From Gordonia jinghuaiqii (GTDB lineage Bacteria > Actinomycetota > Actinomycetes > Mycobacteriales > Mycobacteriaceae): 64,000 bases of DNA. Numbering within the stretch: the stretch's first letter is position 1; each line of letters starts with the position of its first letter. The notes beneath the pieces were generated by a model. It was not told the DNA's origin. It searched no databases and saw nothing but the letters and a program-made list of their open reading frames with translations. This document shows positions 7,370 through 11,110 of the stretch, in pieces. A program made the position numbers and the translations under genes. The stretch is taken from positions 3,472,001 to 3,536,000 of the forward strand of contig NZ_CP059491.1 of assembly GCF_014041935.1 (NCBI RefSeq), written 5' to 3'.

Positions 7370-7660
7370 TCACGCGAGCGCGAGGAACAATTTCTCCAGC
7401 TCCGCCTCGGACAACGGCGGCTGTTCACCGTCGGCGGTCTCGATGCACTGCCGCATCCCGGAGGCGACGATCTTGAAGCCTGCGCGGTCGAGCGCGCGTG
7501 ACACCGCGGCGAGCTGGGTGACCACATCCTTGCAGTCACGACCGGCCTCGATCATCGCGATCACACCCGCGAGCTGCCCTTGAGCACGTCGCAACCGATT
7601 CAGGACGGCACCCATCGCCTCGTCACCAACGGCCATGTGGGGCCTCGCTTCAACTGTCAT
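7370..7660 (-). CDS. CsoR/CstR/FrmR-family (DUF156) transcriptional repressor, CstR-like
   Basis: 96 residues, all-helical DUF156 repressor: [20 protein letters not shown] (helix 1), [20 protein letters not shown] (helix 2), [11 protein letters not shown] (helix 3). Cys43 and Cys72 are 29 residues apart, as are the two Cys of CsoR and CstR. The His that copper-sensing CsoR has four residues before its second Cys is Gly68 here, which points away from copper CsoR and towards thiol sensors of the CstR type that respond to persulfide. The ATG at 7660 has GGAG upstream; Met9 is an alternative. It is divergent from the MMPL-DUF302-DsbA genes, with two palindromic operators between them. The signal sensed is inferred. 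Confidence 0.87.
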
Positions 7661-7741
7661 CGCGACTCTCCTCGTCATCGACCACCGGGTGTGCGGCCAC
7701 CGGCAGATTCCCGGAAGCGCGACCGCTGGTTCTTGACGACA

Positions 7742-7761
7742 ACATACCCCCTTGGGTATGT
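7742..7761. promoter_or_regulatory. Palindromic operator 1 of the CsoR/CstR-like repressor
   Basis: ACATACCCCCTTGGGTATGT is an almost perfect 20-bp inverted repeat with C-tract/G-tract arms (ATACCC...GGGTAT). CsoR-family tetramers bind G/C-tract palindromes of this kind. It lies between the repressor gene and the MMPL gene, 14 bases from a second copy. Confidence 0.8.
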
Positions 7762-7775
7762 TCGCGACCAGACAT

Positions 7776-7791
7776 ATACCCCATGGGGTAT
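7776..7791. promoter_or_regulatory. Palindromic operator 2 of the CsoR/CstR-like repressor
   Basis: ATACCCCATGGGGTAT is a perfect 16-bp palindrome, centred 32 bp from the first operator (about three helical turns). It ends 15 bases before the MMPL start codon, so a bound repressor would cover the transcription start region. The ATG inside it is in frame with the transporter but lacks a ribosome-binding site. Confidence 0.82.
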
Positions 7792-7806
7792 CTAAGGAAG
7801 GAAACC

Positions 7807-9969
7807 ATGGCGCCGAAGTCGGCCCTGTCCGAACACGAAGCAACACCAGACTCATCGAGTCCATCGGCCGGCCTACTCGGCCGATGGGGTGCGGCCATGG
7901 CCGGCCACGCCCGCTGGGTCTTCGGTCTCTGGCTACTGGCCCTGCTGGTCCTGGGCGCCGCAGCACCGTCGGTGTTCTCCTCGCTCGCGGGCGCGGGCTG
8001 GCAAGCCAACGGGTCCGAGTCCGTCCAGGTCCGAGACCTGACGCAGCAACATTTCGGCGGGAACTCCTCGGCTGCCGTGCAGGTGGTCGTCCACTCCGAT
8101 GACACTCGCGTCGAGAGCCCTGAAGTCCAGGCCGTGGTCGCACAGATCACCGAGCTCGCCGCAACCGATGACCGGTTCGCCCAGGTCCTACCCCCGCAAC
8201 CCGGCATGTCCATCAGTCCCGACGGCCACACCGGGATCGTCATCATGGGCGCAGCGGCCAACACCGACGACATGGTTCGCGCCGTCGACGAGCACAAAGA
8301 CGCGCTGACCGGGATGTCCGGAAACGGGGTCGAGGTCTACCCGACCGGGGCCTCGGCTCTGTGGAGCGACTTCAACAAGGCCAACCACGACGCCATGATC
8401 AAGGCAGAGCTGTTCTCCTGGCCGGTCACGCTGACGATCATGGTGCTCGCCTTCGGGTCCCTGGTCGCGGCCGGACTGCCCCTGCTGCTGACCATCGCAG
8501 GACTCGTCGCGTCCGCAGGGGGCCTGGTCCTGCTGAACCAGGTGACGCCGATCTCGGTGTGGGCGATCAACTTCGCCATGATGTTCGCGCTGGCGCTGGG
8601 CATCGACTACGCACTCTTCATCGTGTCTCGCTTCCGCGACTCCATCCGGGAACGCGGCGAGAACATGCGCGCCGCGGTCGCCGAGACCATGGACACCGCA
8701 GGAAAGGCCGTGTTGCTCTCCGGCATCACGGTTCTGGTGAGCCTGTCGGCCGTGCTGCTCGTCCCCGCACCGGCGGTGCGCACCATGGCGGTGGGCATCA
8801 TGCTGGCGGTGTTCTTCGTCCTGGCGGCCACGCTGACCCTCCTACCCGCTGCGCTGGGCAAGCTGGGCGGCAAGGTCAACGCGGTCTCGATGCCGTACGC
8901 GCGCCGCCAGCAGCACCGGTCGCCGATGTTCGCGCGCTGGGGAGGCTTCCTGCACCGCCACCCGTGGACCGTTGCCGCCGGCTCCCTGGTCGTTCTCATC
9001 GCACTCTCGATCCCGGTCTTCGGGCTGAAGGTTGCGATGCCGTCGATCGGCGTCGTCCCGTCCGACGCCCCGGTCCGCCAGGGCTACGAACTCGTCCAAT
9101 CCCAGATGGGTGAGGGCGCACCGGGAATGCTGCAGATCGTCGCACCCGCCGACGAGGCGCGCGAGACCGCCGAGATCGCGGCACAGGCCCCTGGCATCGA
9201 GATGGTCACTCCCCCGATGCCTGCCGTGGACGGCTCGGAATACGTTCTCATGCAGGCCCTTCCGTCGGTCGACCCGTCCGATGGACAGATGAGCACCATC
9301 GTCGGCGATCTCCGGAACACCCTGCCCGACGGCGCAGTGGTCGGCGGGGCGCCCACCGAGAACCTCGACCTTCAGCAGACGCTGAACGACTATTTCCCCC
9401 TGATCGTCTCCGTCATCCTCATCCTCGGCTTCCTGCTGCTCCTGGTGTCCCTGCAGGCACCGTTGATCGCCCTGATCGGCACGGTGGTGAGCCTGTTGTC
9501 CACGGCAGCCGCTTTCGGCGTCGCGAAGCTGATCTTCCAGGACGGGTTCCTCGCGGACCTGTTGGGTTTCAGCCCGCAGGGCTTCCTCGACGGGTGGGCG
9601 CCGGTGTTCTTCTTCGCCATGATCTTCGCGATCGCGATGGACTACACCGTCTTCCTCCTCGCCACAGCCAAGGAGCATTTCGAGCGGTCCGGTGACGCCG
9701 CCACCGCACAGATCGACGGAATGGCACACTCCGGCCGCATCATCTTCGCCGCGGCCGCGGTCATGGTGGCGGTGTTCTTCACCTTCGCACTGGCCGAACC
9801 GCTACCTCCGAAGGAGATGGGGATCATCCTCGGCGTGGCGGTCCTGCTCGACGCTGTCCTGATCCGGCTGACGCTTCTGCCCGCGCTGCTACGCATCACC
9901 GGGCGCGCGGCGTGGTGGACACCGGGCTGGTTGCGCCGAATCCTGCCCTCGATCAGCTTCTCGCATTGA
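7807..9969 (+). CDS. MMPL/RND family membrane transporter
   Basis: 720 residues from the ATG at 7807, preceded by AAGGAAGG; the in-frame ATG at 7783 lies inside the operator and is unlikely. Topology fits an MMPL transporter: TM1 at about residues 36-56, an extracytoplasmic domain to about 190, five TM segments to about 355, a second domain, then five more TM segments. The proton-relay Asp occur in [14 protein letters not shown] and [21 protein letters not shown] proteins export lipids, siderophores or small toxic molecules. It is first in a unit with DUF302 and DsbA-like genes under a CstR-like repressor, so export of a sulfur-, thiol- or metal-related stressor is possible. The substrate cannot be read from sequence. 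Confidence 0.92.
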
Positions 9970-10010
9970 GATCTGCACAACCGGGTACACAGGGACTCAG
10001 ACCCGACCGA

Positions 10011-10035
10011 GTCGAGTCGAGTCGAGTCGAGTCGA
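10011..10035 (+). repeat. Pentanucleotide tandem repeat (GTCGA)5
   Basis: Five exact GTCGA units lie in the 81-base gap between the MMPL stop and the DUF302 start. They end 16 bases before the ATG, next to the AAAGAAAGGA ribosome-binding region. Such short repeats change copy number by slippage and could tune the spacing or RNA structure ahead of the DUF302 gene. Confidence 0.97.
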
Positions 10036-10050
10036 AAAGAAAGGAACACC

Positions 10051-10455
10051 ATGACACTCGCACTGGCCACCACGCTGGCGGTCCCCTTCGCCGAGGCGGT
10101 CGAGAAAACCCGCGCCGCACTCGCAGACCAGGGTTTCGGCGTCCTCACCGAGATCGACGTCCAGGCGACGCTGAAGACCAAGCTCGACGAGGACATGGAA
10201 CCGTATCTGATCCTCGGCGCCTGCAATCCGCCGTTGGCGCACCGTGCGCTCGGCGTCCAGCGCCAGATCGGACTGCTGTTGCCGTGCAACGTCGTCGTCC
10301 GATCGGACCCCGACAACCCCGGCACGACTCTCGTGGAGGCGATGAATCCCGATCTGATGGTTCAGGTTTCGGGTGAGGCCGACCTCGAGCCGGTCGCGCG
10401 TGACGCCGCGGAGAAGCTGCGCGCCGCGATCGACGCGTTGTCGAAGCAGTCCTGA
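10051..10455 (+). CDS. DUF302 domain protein
   Basis: 134 residues, almost entirely one DUF302 domain: AVEKTRAALADQGFGVLTEI, then LGACNPPLAHRALGVQRQIG and LLPCNVVVRSDPDNPGTTLVEAMNP. DUF302 is a small alpha/beta dimer of unknown biochemical role, often next to thiol, sulfur or metal-stress genes. A Cys sits in GACNPP and another in LLPCN. The ATG follows a good purine-rich site (AAAGAAAGGA). It is the second gene after MMPL and precedes the DsbA-like gene by 49 bases, so it is probably under the same repressor. Confidence 0.88.
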   Translation: MTLALATTLAVPFAEAVEKTRAALADQGFGVLTEIDVQATLKTKLDEDMEPYLILGACNPPLAHRALGVQRQIGLLLPCNVVVRSDPDNPGTTLVEAMNPDLMVQVSGEADLEPVARDAAEKLRAAIDALSKQS

Positions 10456-10504
10456 CCCGCGGAGACACCCGGACGAACAGAACACCCACGAACACAGGAG
10501 CTCC

Positions 10505-11110
10505 ATGACCCACTTCGATTTCCACTTCGACCCGGTGTGCCCGTTCGCCTGGGCCGCATCCCGCTGGCTCATCGACCAGGCCGGCACCCACGGCGCCTCC
10601 GTCGATTGGCACGTGATGAGCCTGGCCGTTCTGAACGAGGACCAGCAGCCGGACTCGGAGGGCCAGCGCCGCCAACTCGACACGTCGCGGCGACTCGGAC
10701 GAGTCTTCATGGCCGCCGTCGCGAAGAACGGCACCGAATCGATCGGGCCCCTGTACTCGGCGACCGGCCGACGTCTCCACCACGCGGGCGATGAGATGAC
10801 CCCAGACGTCGTCGCCGAGATCCTGACCGAGGCCGGGCTCCCCGCGGAGTTGGCCGAGGCGATGGACGACGAGACGTTCGACGAGCCGCTACGCACATCG
10901 CATCAACGCAGCCAGGATGCACTGGGAGAGACCGGCGGCAGCCCGCTCATCGGCATCGACGGCACGCATTTCTTCGGTCCGGTCCTCTCCGGATTCCCAA
11001 CCGGAGAGGACGCCGCCGCGCTCTACACCTCGCTCGTCACACTGGCGGGCACGTCGGTCTTCTCACAGATCAAGCGGCCGGCCGGTGGGCCGCCGAGTTT
11101 CTCGGACTGA
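10505..11110 (+). CDS. DsbA-family thioredoxin-fold protein (Rv2466c-like, single active-site Cys)
   Basis: 201 residues; the ATG at 10505 follows CAGGAG. The start HFDFHFDPVCPFAWAASRW is the thioredoxin-fold active site. In the mycothiol-dependent nitroreductase Rv2466c the matching motif, as I recall it, is CPWC, whereas here it is CPFA (Cys12 only), so the resolving Cys is missing and a monothiol or mycothiol-mixed-disulfide mechanism is likely. DWHVMSLAVLNE, GSPLIGIDGTHFFGPVLSGFP and the C-terminus are as expected. No signal peptide, so it is cytoplasmic. It is third in the putative CstR-like regulon and could act on low-molecular-weight thiols. Confidence 0.85.
   Translation: MTHFDFHFDPVCPFAWAASRWLIDQAGTHGASVDWHVMSLAVLNEDQQPDSEGQRRQLDTSRRLGRVFMAAVAKNGTESIGPLYSATGRRLHHAGDEMTPDVVAEILTEAGLPAELAEAMDDETFDEPLRTSHQRSQDALGETGGSPLIGIDGTHFFGPVLSGFPTGEDAAALYTSLVTLAGTSVFSQIKRPAGGPPSFSD

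Follow-up and report, generated by a model that had tools for sequence, protein, structure and literature searches.

We examined a compact divergent locus in a window of 64,000 nucleotides (NZ_CP059491.1, positions 3,472,001 to 3,536,000; coordinates below are those of the window) from the one-contig, 5.18 Mb genome of Gordonia jinghuaiqii, whose nearest kin by name are G. lacunae and G. alkanivorans. At this locus, a PF02583 repressor on the minus strand opposes genes for an MMPL transporter, a DUF302 protein and a protein with a CPFA motif, in that order, with two palindromic operators in the intervening region; gaps of 81 and 49 bases suggest that the three plus-strand genes form one transcript. 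From the evidence set out below, the locus is probably a regulon of the ScCsoR/CstR type that responds to sulfane-sulfur (persulfide/polysulfide) stress and in which an alternative set of effectors takes the place of the usual one. Its features are as follows.

7370–7660, minus strand: CsoR-family repressor (PF02583; 96 residues), with Cys43, Cys72 and, at the CsoR histidine position, Gly68
7733–7762, plus strand: candidate sigma-70-like promoter of the MMPL gene (TTGACG, 18 nt, TATGTT), by consensus match only
7741–7762, no strand: operator 1, AACATACCC-CCTT-GGGTATGTT, which fits ATACC-N6-GGTAT
7776–7791, no strand: operator 2, a perfect 16-base palindrome, ATACCCCATGGGGTAT
7794–7801, plus strand: likely ribosome-binding site of the MMPL gene, AAGGAAGG, read directly off the sequence
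7807–9969, plus strand: MMPL-family (RND) transporter (720 residues), with Asp267-Tyr268 and Asp612-Tyr613
10051–10455, plus strand: DUF302 protein (134 residues), with Cys58 and Cys79 as its only cysteines
10505–11110, plus strand: homologue of the Rv2466c-family mycothiol-dependent reductases, with a monothiol CPFA motif (codons 10538–10549)

The repressor matches PF02583 with 82.5 bits (cut-off 22.8), which places it in the CsoR/RcnR superfamily; CsoR-family repressors are tetramers. Its two cysteines stand 29 residues apart at the CsoR x and z positions, as in persulfide-sensing-type members, and both are kept in all 167 homologues scored (the window protein included) and in all of the 120 best matches listed from 7965 database relatives. 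For the homologue counts of the repressor, DUF302 and the Rv2466c-like proteins, matches with at least 60% coverage were scored, leaving aside among others fragmentary Rv2466c-like ones in L085, L090 and L091; any protein with an internal stop was kept out of the alignments. The Cys-His-Cys Cu(I) site of CsoR and RicR is missing, the copper-ligand histidine being replaced by glycine; among the 167 homologues this position holds Gly in 156, Asn in 5, Ser in 2, His in 2, Ile in 1 and Tyr in 1, and the RicR model gave 39.1 bits against a cut-off of 175. An earlier note on this DNA, made from the sequence alone, had described a repressor with two cysteines 29 apart and without the copper-ligand histidine, and both the alignment and the homologues bear this out. 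A second PF02583 protein in the same genome has the Cys-His-Cys pattern and adjoins an HMA/P-type ATPase gene. The promoter of the copper-type CsoR (L001:1793–1807) carries a similar palindrome, with a 7-base centre vs. the 6-base centre of the sulfur-type operators.

The closest proven counterpart is ScCsoR (SCO0620) of Streptomyces coelicolor, for which excerpts of PMC7533328 describe the operator ATACCn6GGTAT at two sites per promoter, persulfidation of Cys37 (with Cys66) by polysulfide leading to release of DNA, and a circuit containing persulfide dioxygenase (PDO), rhodanese and TauE. On the basis of these excerpts, ScCsoR and the window repressor are alike in having two cysteines 29 apart and a paired ATACCn6GGTAT operator, but the PDO, rhodanese and TauE genes of the ScCsoR circuit have their place taken here by MMPL, DUF302 and a monothiol Rv2466c homologue, and the locus is divergent with operators 32 bp apart vs. 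39 bp (from -48 and -9) for ScCsoR. Firmicute CstR (S. aureus), as presented in excerpts of PMC10318464 and PMC7533328, resembles the window repressor in its two cysteines, the lack of a histidine ligand and the logic of sulfur stress, so the window repressor probably works like CstR, yet we do not file it as a Firmicute CstR. A further parallel is found in the SUL modules of Arthrobacter plasmids, given in an excerpt of PMC6305408 as a CsoR regulator, dioxygenase, rhodaneses, TauE and DUF302; like our locus, these modules unite a CsoR-family regulator with DUF302 in one cluster, but their transporter is of the MFS type, and MMPL and an Rv2466c homologue are absent from the list given in that excerpt. 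We found no description of a regulon such as the present one in titles, abstract starts and passages of the open-licence literature.

Operator 1 consists of two perfect 9-base arms around 4 bases and is accordingly a 22-mer, not the 20-mer of the earlier note, which was right about the perfect 16-mer and about the distance between the centres (7751.5 and 7783.5, 32 bp apart). With up to one mismatch allowed, the operator sites account for 4 of the 5 matches of TACCCCNNNGGGTA in the window, where 0.16 are expected in all, which speaks against chance; ATACCCN4GGGTAT, also with up to one mismatch, finds only the two operators in the whole genome, and exact ATACC-N6-GGTAT occurs at these same two sites alone in 5.18 Mb. 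The candidate promoter was found once, against a mean of 0.0 in 50 shuffles; operator 1 covers its spacer and -10 and operator 2 sits just downstream of the start predicted from it, positions that would suit repression of MMPL. One-mismatch versions of ATACC-N6-GGTAT occur at 33 further sites across the genome vs. 10 for a control pattern, and among these there may be additional targets, either for this repressor or for the copper CsoR; the self-contained response proposed in the earlier note is therefore not borne out.

Beyond the window, we used the best 80 of at least 561 confirmed repressor loci (named loci), 59 close loci (window included) and 22 distant loci, which together make 161 loci and 2.1 Mb; every locus was picked for its repressor, the counts take in sister species and near copies, and 23 of the 80 named loci end within 4.5 kb of the repressor. 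The operator pair is kept at 32–35 bp in the 11 kin loci that share this divergent gene order. Across the 161 loci, there are 247 exact ATACC-N6-GGTAT sites and none of the reversed pattern; 242 of these sites lie within 400 bp of the match start of a seed gene, the nearest being the repressor for 79, MMPL for 75, PDO for 45 and others for the remainder. A six-base centre stands out sharply, with 330 sites for TACC-N6-GGTA in the 142 loci outside L175–L193 vs. at most 11 for any of N2–N5 and N7–N10. Because the loci were picked around the repressor, operators near it are expected, and MMPL genes lying at a distance on the same strand provide a more independent test: when the starts of MMPL and the repressor are over 1.5 kb apart and both genes share a strand, an operator lies upstream of MMPL in 27 of 30 loci. 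In the divergent and near class, the figure is 16 of 17. The Gordonia relatives L034, L121 and L123 have a third ATACC-N6-GGTAT operator ahead of a gene for a 78-residue membrane protein (L123:5585–5892; L034:8411–8647 and L121:6453–6689, both on the minus strand), which is YgaP-like by Pfam in L123 and near-identical in the other two; judging from these sites, the predicted regulon is larger in these relatives. A YgaP-like segment also occurs within one rhodanese adjoining a related repressor. At the far end of the range, a divergent clade (L175–L193, mostly 43–53% identity) has DUF302 and/or MMPL next to the repressor, with ATACC-N6-GGTAT nearly always missing.

Of the three putative effectors, the DUF302 protein matches PF03625 above cut-off and has the TT1751 fold, with a structure model (pLDDT 91.7) that matches 1j3m and 1q9u, and its gene is the only DUF302 gene found in its genome. 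Cys58 and Cys79 are invariant in all 88 aligned DUF302 proteins (of 89 found), and their equivalents are present in 1j3m and 1q9u as well; these PDB entries are titled hypothetical or uncharacterised, so they offer no function to compare. Hints of a link to sulfur come from excerpts of the literature, in which DUF302 occurs within sox clusters of some sulfur oxidisers and a gene of the Synechocystis sqr operon resembles DUF302. No published role for DUF302 was found in the open-licence literature; PMC7781554, retrieved as a candidate, was set aside as the matched text concerns DUF3027.

The third protein had been described as DsbA-like in the earlier note, which was correct about the gene content of the trio. 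PF22234 fits it far better (175.9 bits vs. a cut-off of 27), making it a member of the Rv2466c family, and the reading as a generic DsbA oxidase was dropped in its favor; PF01323 gave 25.2 bits, just under its cut-off. It belongs to the same family as Rv2466c and NCgl2478 (PDB 5xur, 4nxi) across the full length (E 2e-47), but these carry CPWC/CPFC where the window enzyme has CPFA; the resolving cysteine is gone and Cys12 is the sole cysteine. This loss is not confined to the window: in all 23 proteins scored (window included) the resolving cysteine is missing (CPFA in 20, CPFT in 2, CPFS in 1), and of 7815 database relatives 120 were listed, of which 118 are without a second cysteine, one has it and the last is a fragment. 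A CPWC paralogue is kept elsewhere in the same genome (G000:C1:2211337). Rv2466c reductases have been linked to the way in which the antitubercular prodrug TP053 is activated. As described in excerpts of PMC8280269, substrates of the family are S-mycothiolated mixed disulfides, and a resolving-cysteine mutant of NCgl2478 reduces a mycothiolated mixed disulfide slightly faster, by a monothiol mechanism. Since that mutant stays active, a one-cysteine enzyme can act as a de-mycothiolase. The locus suggests that the Rv2466c reductases include a naturally monothiol branch.

The transporter has an MMPL domain (236.9 bits) and is a member of the MMPL/RND group; its two Asp-Tyr pairs are kept in all 57 aligned MMPL proteins (window included). 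We take these to be proton-relay pairs, as in MmpL3.

The genes around related repressors support a common regulon with exchangeable effectors. In 61 genomes (37 of the same genus, own genome included, and 24 at order level), 43 of 49 DUF302 copies lie within 4 kb of a repressor, as do 25 of 29 MMPL orthologues (E up to 1e-150); repressor matches were taken at E up to about 5e-17, and the DUF302 distances also drew on three weaker repressor matches in genomes outside the 61. Both repressor and DUF302 are present in 35 same-genus genomes and neither in the other 2; at order level, 7 genomes have both, 16 have neither and 1 has the repressor alone. The Fisher value of 0.0015 for this co-occurrence is a guide only because the genomes are kin. 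Among the 80 named loci, MMPL was present in 21, DUF302 in 26, both in 14 and all three effectors in 5; 38 had at least one of PDO, rhodanese, TauE and CoA-disulfide-reductase-like (CoADR) genes, 8 of them together with MMPL or DUF302. The 59 close loci gave MMPL in 28, DUF302 in 48, both in 25, all three in 17, the sulfur set in 9 and none in 2, and the 22 distant loci MMPL in 8, DUF302 in 14, both in 4, the sulfur set in 2 and none in 2. The grouping, presented as unusual in the earlier note, is hence not singular but common in Gordonia, Williamsia and Nocardia, with the full four-gene set forming only a part of it. The co-conservation on which that note had staked its reading holds for MMPL and DUF302 with the repressor and for the operator ahead of MMPL, but the full set is found in a minority of loci. 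With this co-conservation and the predicted operator wiring, a chance grouping of the four genes is rejected.

Related repressors, some 75–88% identical, adjoin PDO, rhodanese and TauE instead, including Kitasatospora/Streptomyces relatives (L039, L074 and others) at up to 88% identity to the window repressor; the Pfam check of such neighbours was run on examples from other loci. This agrees with the replacement of sulfur genes by export and partner proteins noted earlier. Five Frankia/Kitasatospora loci (L044, L053, L054, L061, L062) have two close repressor copies on opposite strands, four of them with PDO near. The repressor tree rests on 92 columns with unsettled bootstrap, and only starred forks were used; on it, the window repressor falls in a supported set of 19 rows (97/89), made up of 13 with MMPL+DUF302, 4 with sulfur genes, 1 with both and 1 with none. 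The 4 sulfur-gene rows are rhodanese or CoADR, not PDO, and one of them, L104_3778, sits on a long branch and takes its label from its locus. The context labels require 55 changes on the tree vs. 91.6 in shuffles; as this is far above the least possible number of 7, effector genes appear to have been swapped repeatedly. Effector exchange among related repressors is shown by these data, as are gene content, operators (also those ahead of MMPL in relatives), invariant residues and co-conservation. MBL-rhodanese PDO matches (E up to 1e-40) were found in only 2 of the 37 same-genus genomes and not in the own genome, in a search in which other PDO types and SQR were not included; the best candidate in the own genome was rejected, as it aligned across the MBL part with 27% identity (E 5.9e-13). 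Given this scarcity, the role of PDO may be filled by DUF302 and MMPL in this genus, where the gene set appears to occupy the place that PDO has in Streptomyces.

In the mechanism that we infer, comprising the signal, the binding of the repressor and the chemistry of each protein, the repressor would occupy both operators in resting cells, one over the promoter and one just past the likely start, thereby silencing the MMPL, DUF302 and Rv2466c-like genes. A rise in sulfane sulfur would lead to persulfidation of Cys43, aided by Cys72, whereupon the repressor would leave the DNA and the genes would be turned on. We surmise that the monothiol Rv2466c-like enzyme would then reduce mycothiol persulfide and S-mycothiolated proteins, that the DUF302 protein, with its two cysteines, would serve as an acceptor, carrier or relay of sulfane sulfur, and that MMPL would clear the membrane or the cell of sulfur species that are hydrophobic or bound to thiols. 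In its most specific form, this amounts to an undescribed route for sulfane sulfur without oxidation by PDO, in which the Rv2466c enzyme takes sulfur from mycothiol persulfide, DUF302 relays it and MMPL exports it; we regard this complete route as rather doubtful. If true, it would give the first sulfur-exporting MMPL and the first DUF302 function, as we know of no earlier example of either.

As to the role of MMPL, the transporter may instead export lipid or envelope material, with the regulon shielding the envelope from sulfur damage and the sulfur chemistry left to DUF302 and the Rv2466c-like enzyme alone. The best-scoring solved relatives of MMPL are indeed MmpL3 trehalose monomycolate exporters, the Asp-Tyr pairs are kept and DUF302 accompanies the repressor without MMPL in many loci; however, MMPL also adjoins the repressor in Actinomadura and Streptomyces relatives, which to our knowledge make no mycolates, making a mycolate-specific role unlikely, and we consider the envelope reading as a whole unlikely. 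The main rival for the signal is a thiol-reactive organic compound (a thiosulfinate, organic polysulfane, quinone or other electrophile) that MMPL would export while DUF302 and the Rv2466c-like enzyme repair mycothiol and protein thiols. An exporter paired with a mycothiol-dependent reductase suits detoxification, the action of the Rv2466c family on S-mycothiolated mixed disulfides and the active monothiol NCgl2478 mutant, as excerpted above, are in keeping with it, and some mycobacterial loci add a thioredoxin or CMD/AhpD-type protein by the repressor-DUF302 pair. On the other hand, related repressors with PDO, rhodanese and TauE suit inorganic sulfane sulfur, and we judge an organic signal to be quite improbable; the chemistry of persulfide stress overlaps with that of organic thiol stress, however, and for that reason the two signals cannot be told apart cleanly at this locus.

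A copper or other metal efflux operon, with a Cu(I)-binding repressor and copper export by MMPL, has several circumstantial points in its favor: the database name of the repressor is 'metal-sensitive transcriptional regulator', and excerpts of the literature indicate that CsoR and RicR use similar G-tract palindromes, that the MmpS6/MmpL6 (TbD1) locus alters copper-responsive genes in M. bovis, and that H2S induces CsoR and RicR regulon members in M. tuberculosis, such that copper and sulfide responses can overlap. Nevertheless, histidine is found at the ligand position in only 2 of the 167 homologues and not in the window repressor, the genome has a separate Cys-His-Cys protein beside an HMA/P-type ATPase gene, with a palindrome of 7-base centre, and no metal-binding signature was noticed in MMPL or DUF302, although no search aimed at one was made. 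On account of the lost histidine and the separate PF02583 protein, we rejected copper as the leading explanation and consider it very improbable. Sensing of formaldehyde has in its favor that FrmR belongs to the same family, but the FrmR NCBIfam model is far below its cut-off (29.6 vs. 133 bits), the histidine is missing and no formaldehyde enzyme was recognised among the neighbour families listed; this reading was rejected, and its probability is close to negligible.

Returning to the sulfane-sulfur regulon, a number of observations weigh against it. No recognised sulfur enzyme is present at the window locus (PDO, rhodanese and TauE are absent), the MMPL protein has no cysteine, and 16 of the 80 named loci, some on cut contigs, have no seed gene near; in addition, 6 of the 49 DUF302 copies and 4 of the 29 MMPL orthologues lack a listed repressor nearby. 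The operator ahead of MMPL is absent in 2 further close loci of other arrangements (0/2) and in the divergent repressor clade (<55% identity; 0/8). As none of these 8 MMPL genes carries this operator, the wiring differs in that clade, where an operator of changed spacing was sought and none was found. The CstR-like label of the earlier note holds for both cysteines and the missing histidine, but the nearest proven relative is ScCsoR, and Firmicute CstR has other targets and Asn, not Gly, at the histidine position in the alignment with PDB 7mq1, which we take to be a CstR (the entry itself says CsoR). Finally, TTHA1953 of Thermus, a CsoR relative modulated through Cys and acting as a repressor of sulfur-oxidation genes, showed no response to NaHS according to an excerpt. 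Despite these points, the reactive-sulfur reading of the earlier note gains support from the operator match to ScCsoR, the cysteine pair and the co-conservation, and the grouping and operator sites shared by relatives link MMPL, DUF302 and the monothiol enzyme to sulfur stress. The locus would supply a defined regulon for an MMPL transporter, as predicted from sequence, and DUF302, which in Gordonia and its relatives almost always occurs together with a persulfide-type repressor and has two invariant cysteines, thereby becomes a family whose function is directly testable.

Several minor features were also seen. Mycobacterial repressor-DUF302 loci contain a CMD/AhpD-type protein (L076, L077, L105, L111) or a thioredoxin match (L097, L105, L111), with Pfam run on one example of each (L111 for CMD). 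Within the window, CGAGT is repeated 5.6 times at 10008–10035, between MMPL and DUF302, and the cluster is adjoined at 11748–12536 by a GmrSD_C/HNH-type nuclease-like protein with a membrane-like N-terminus.

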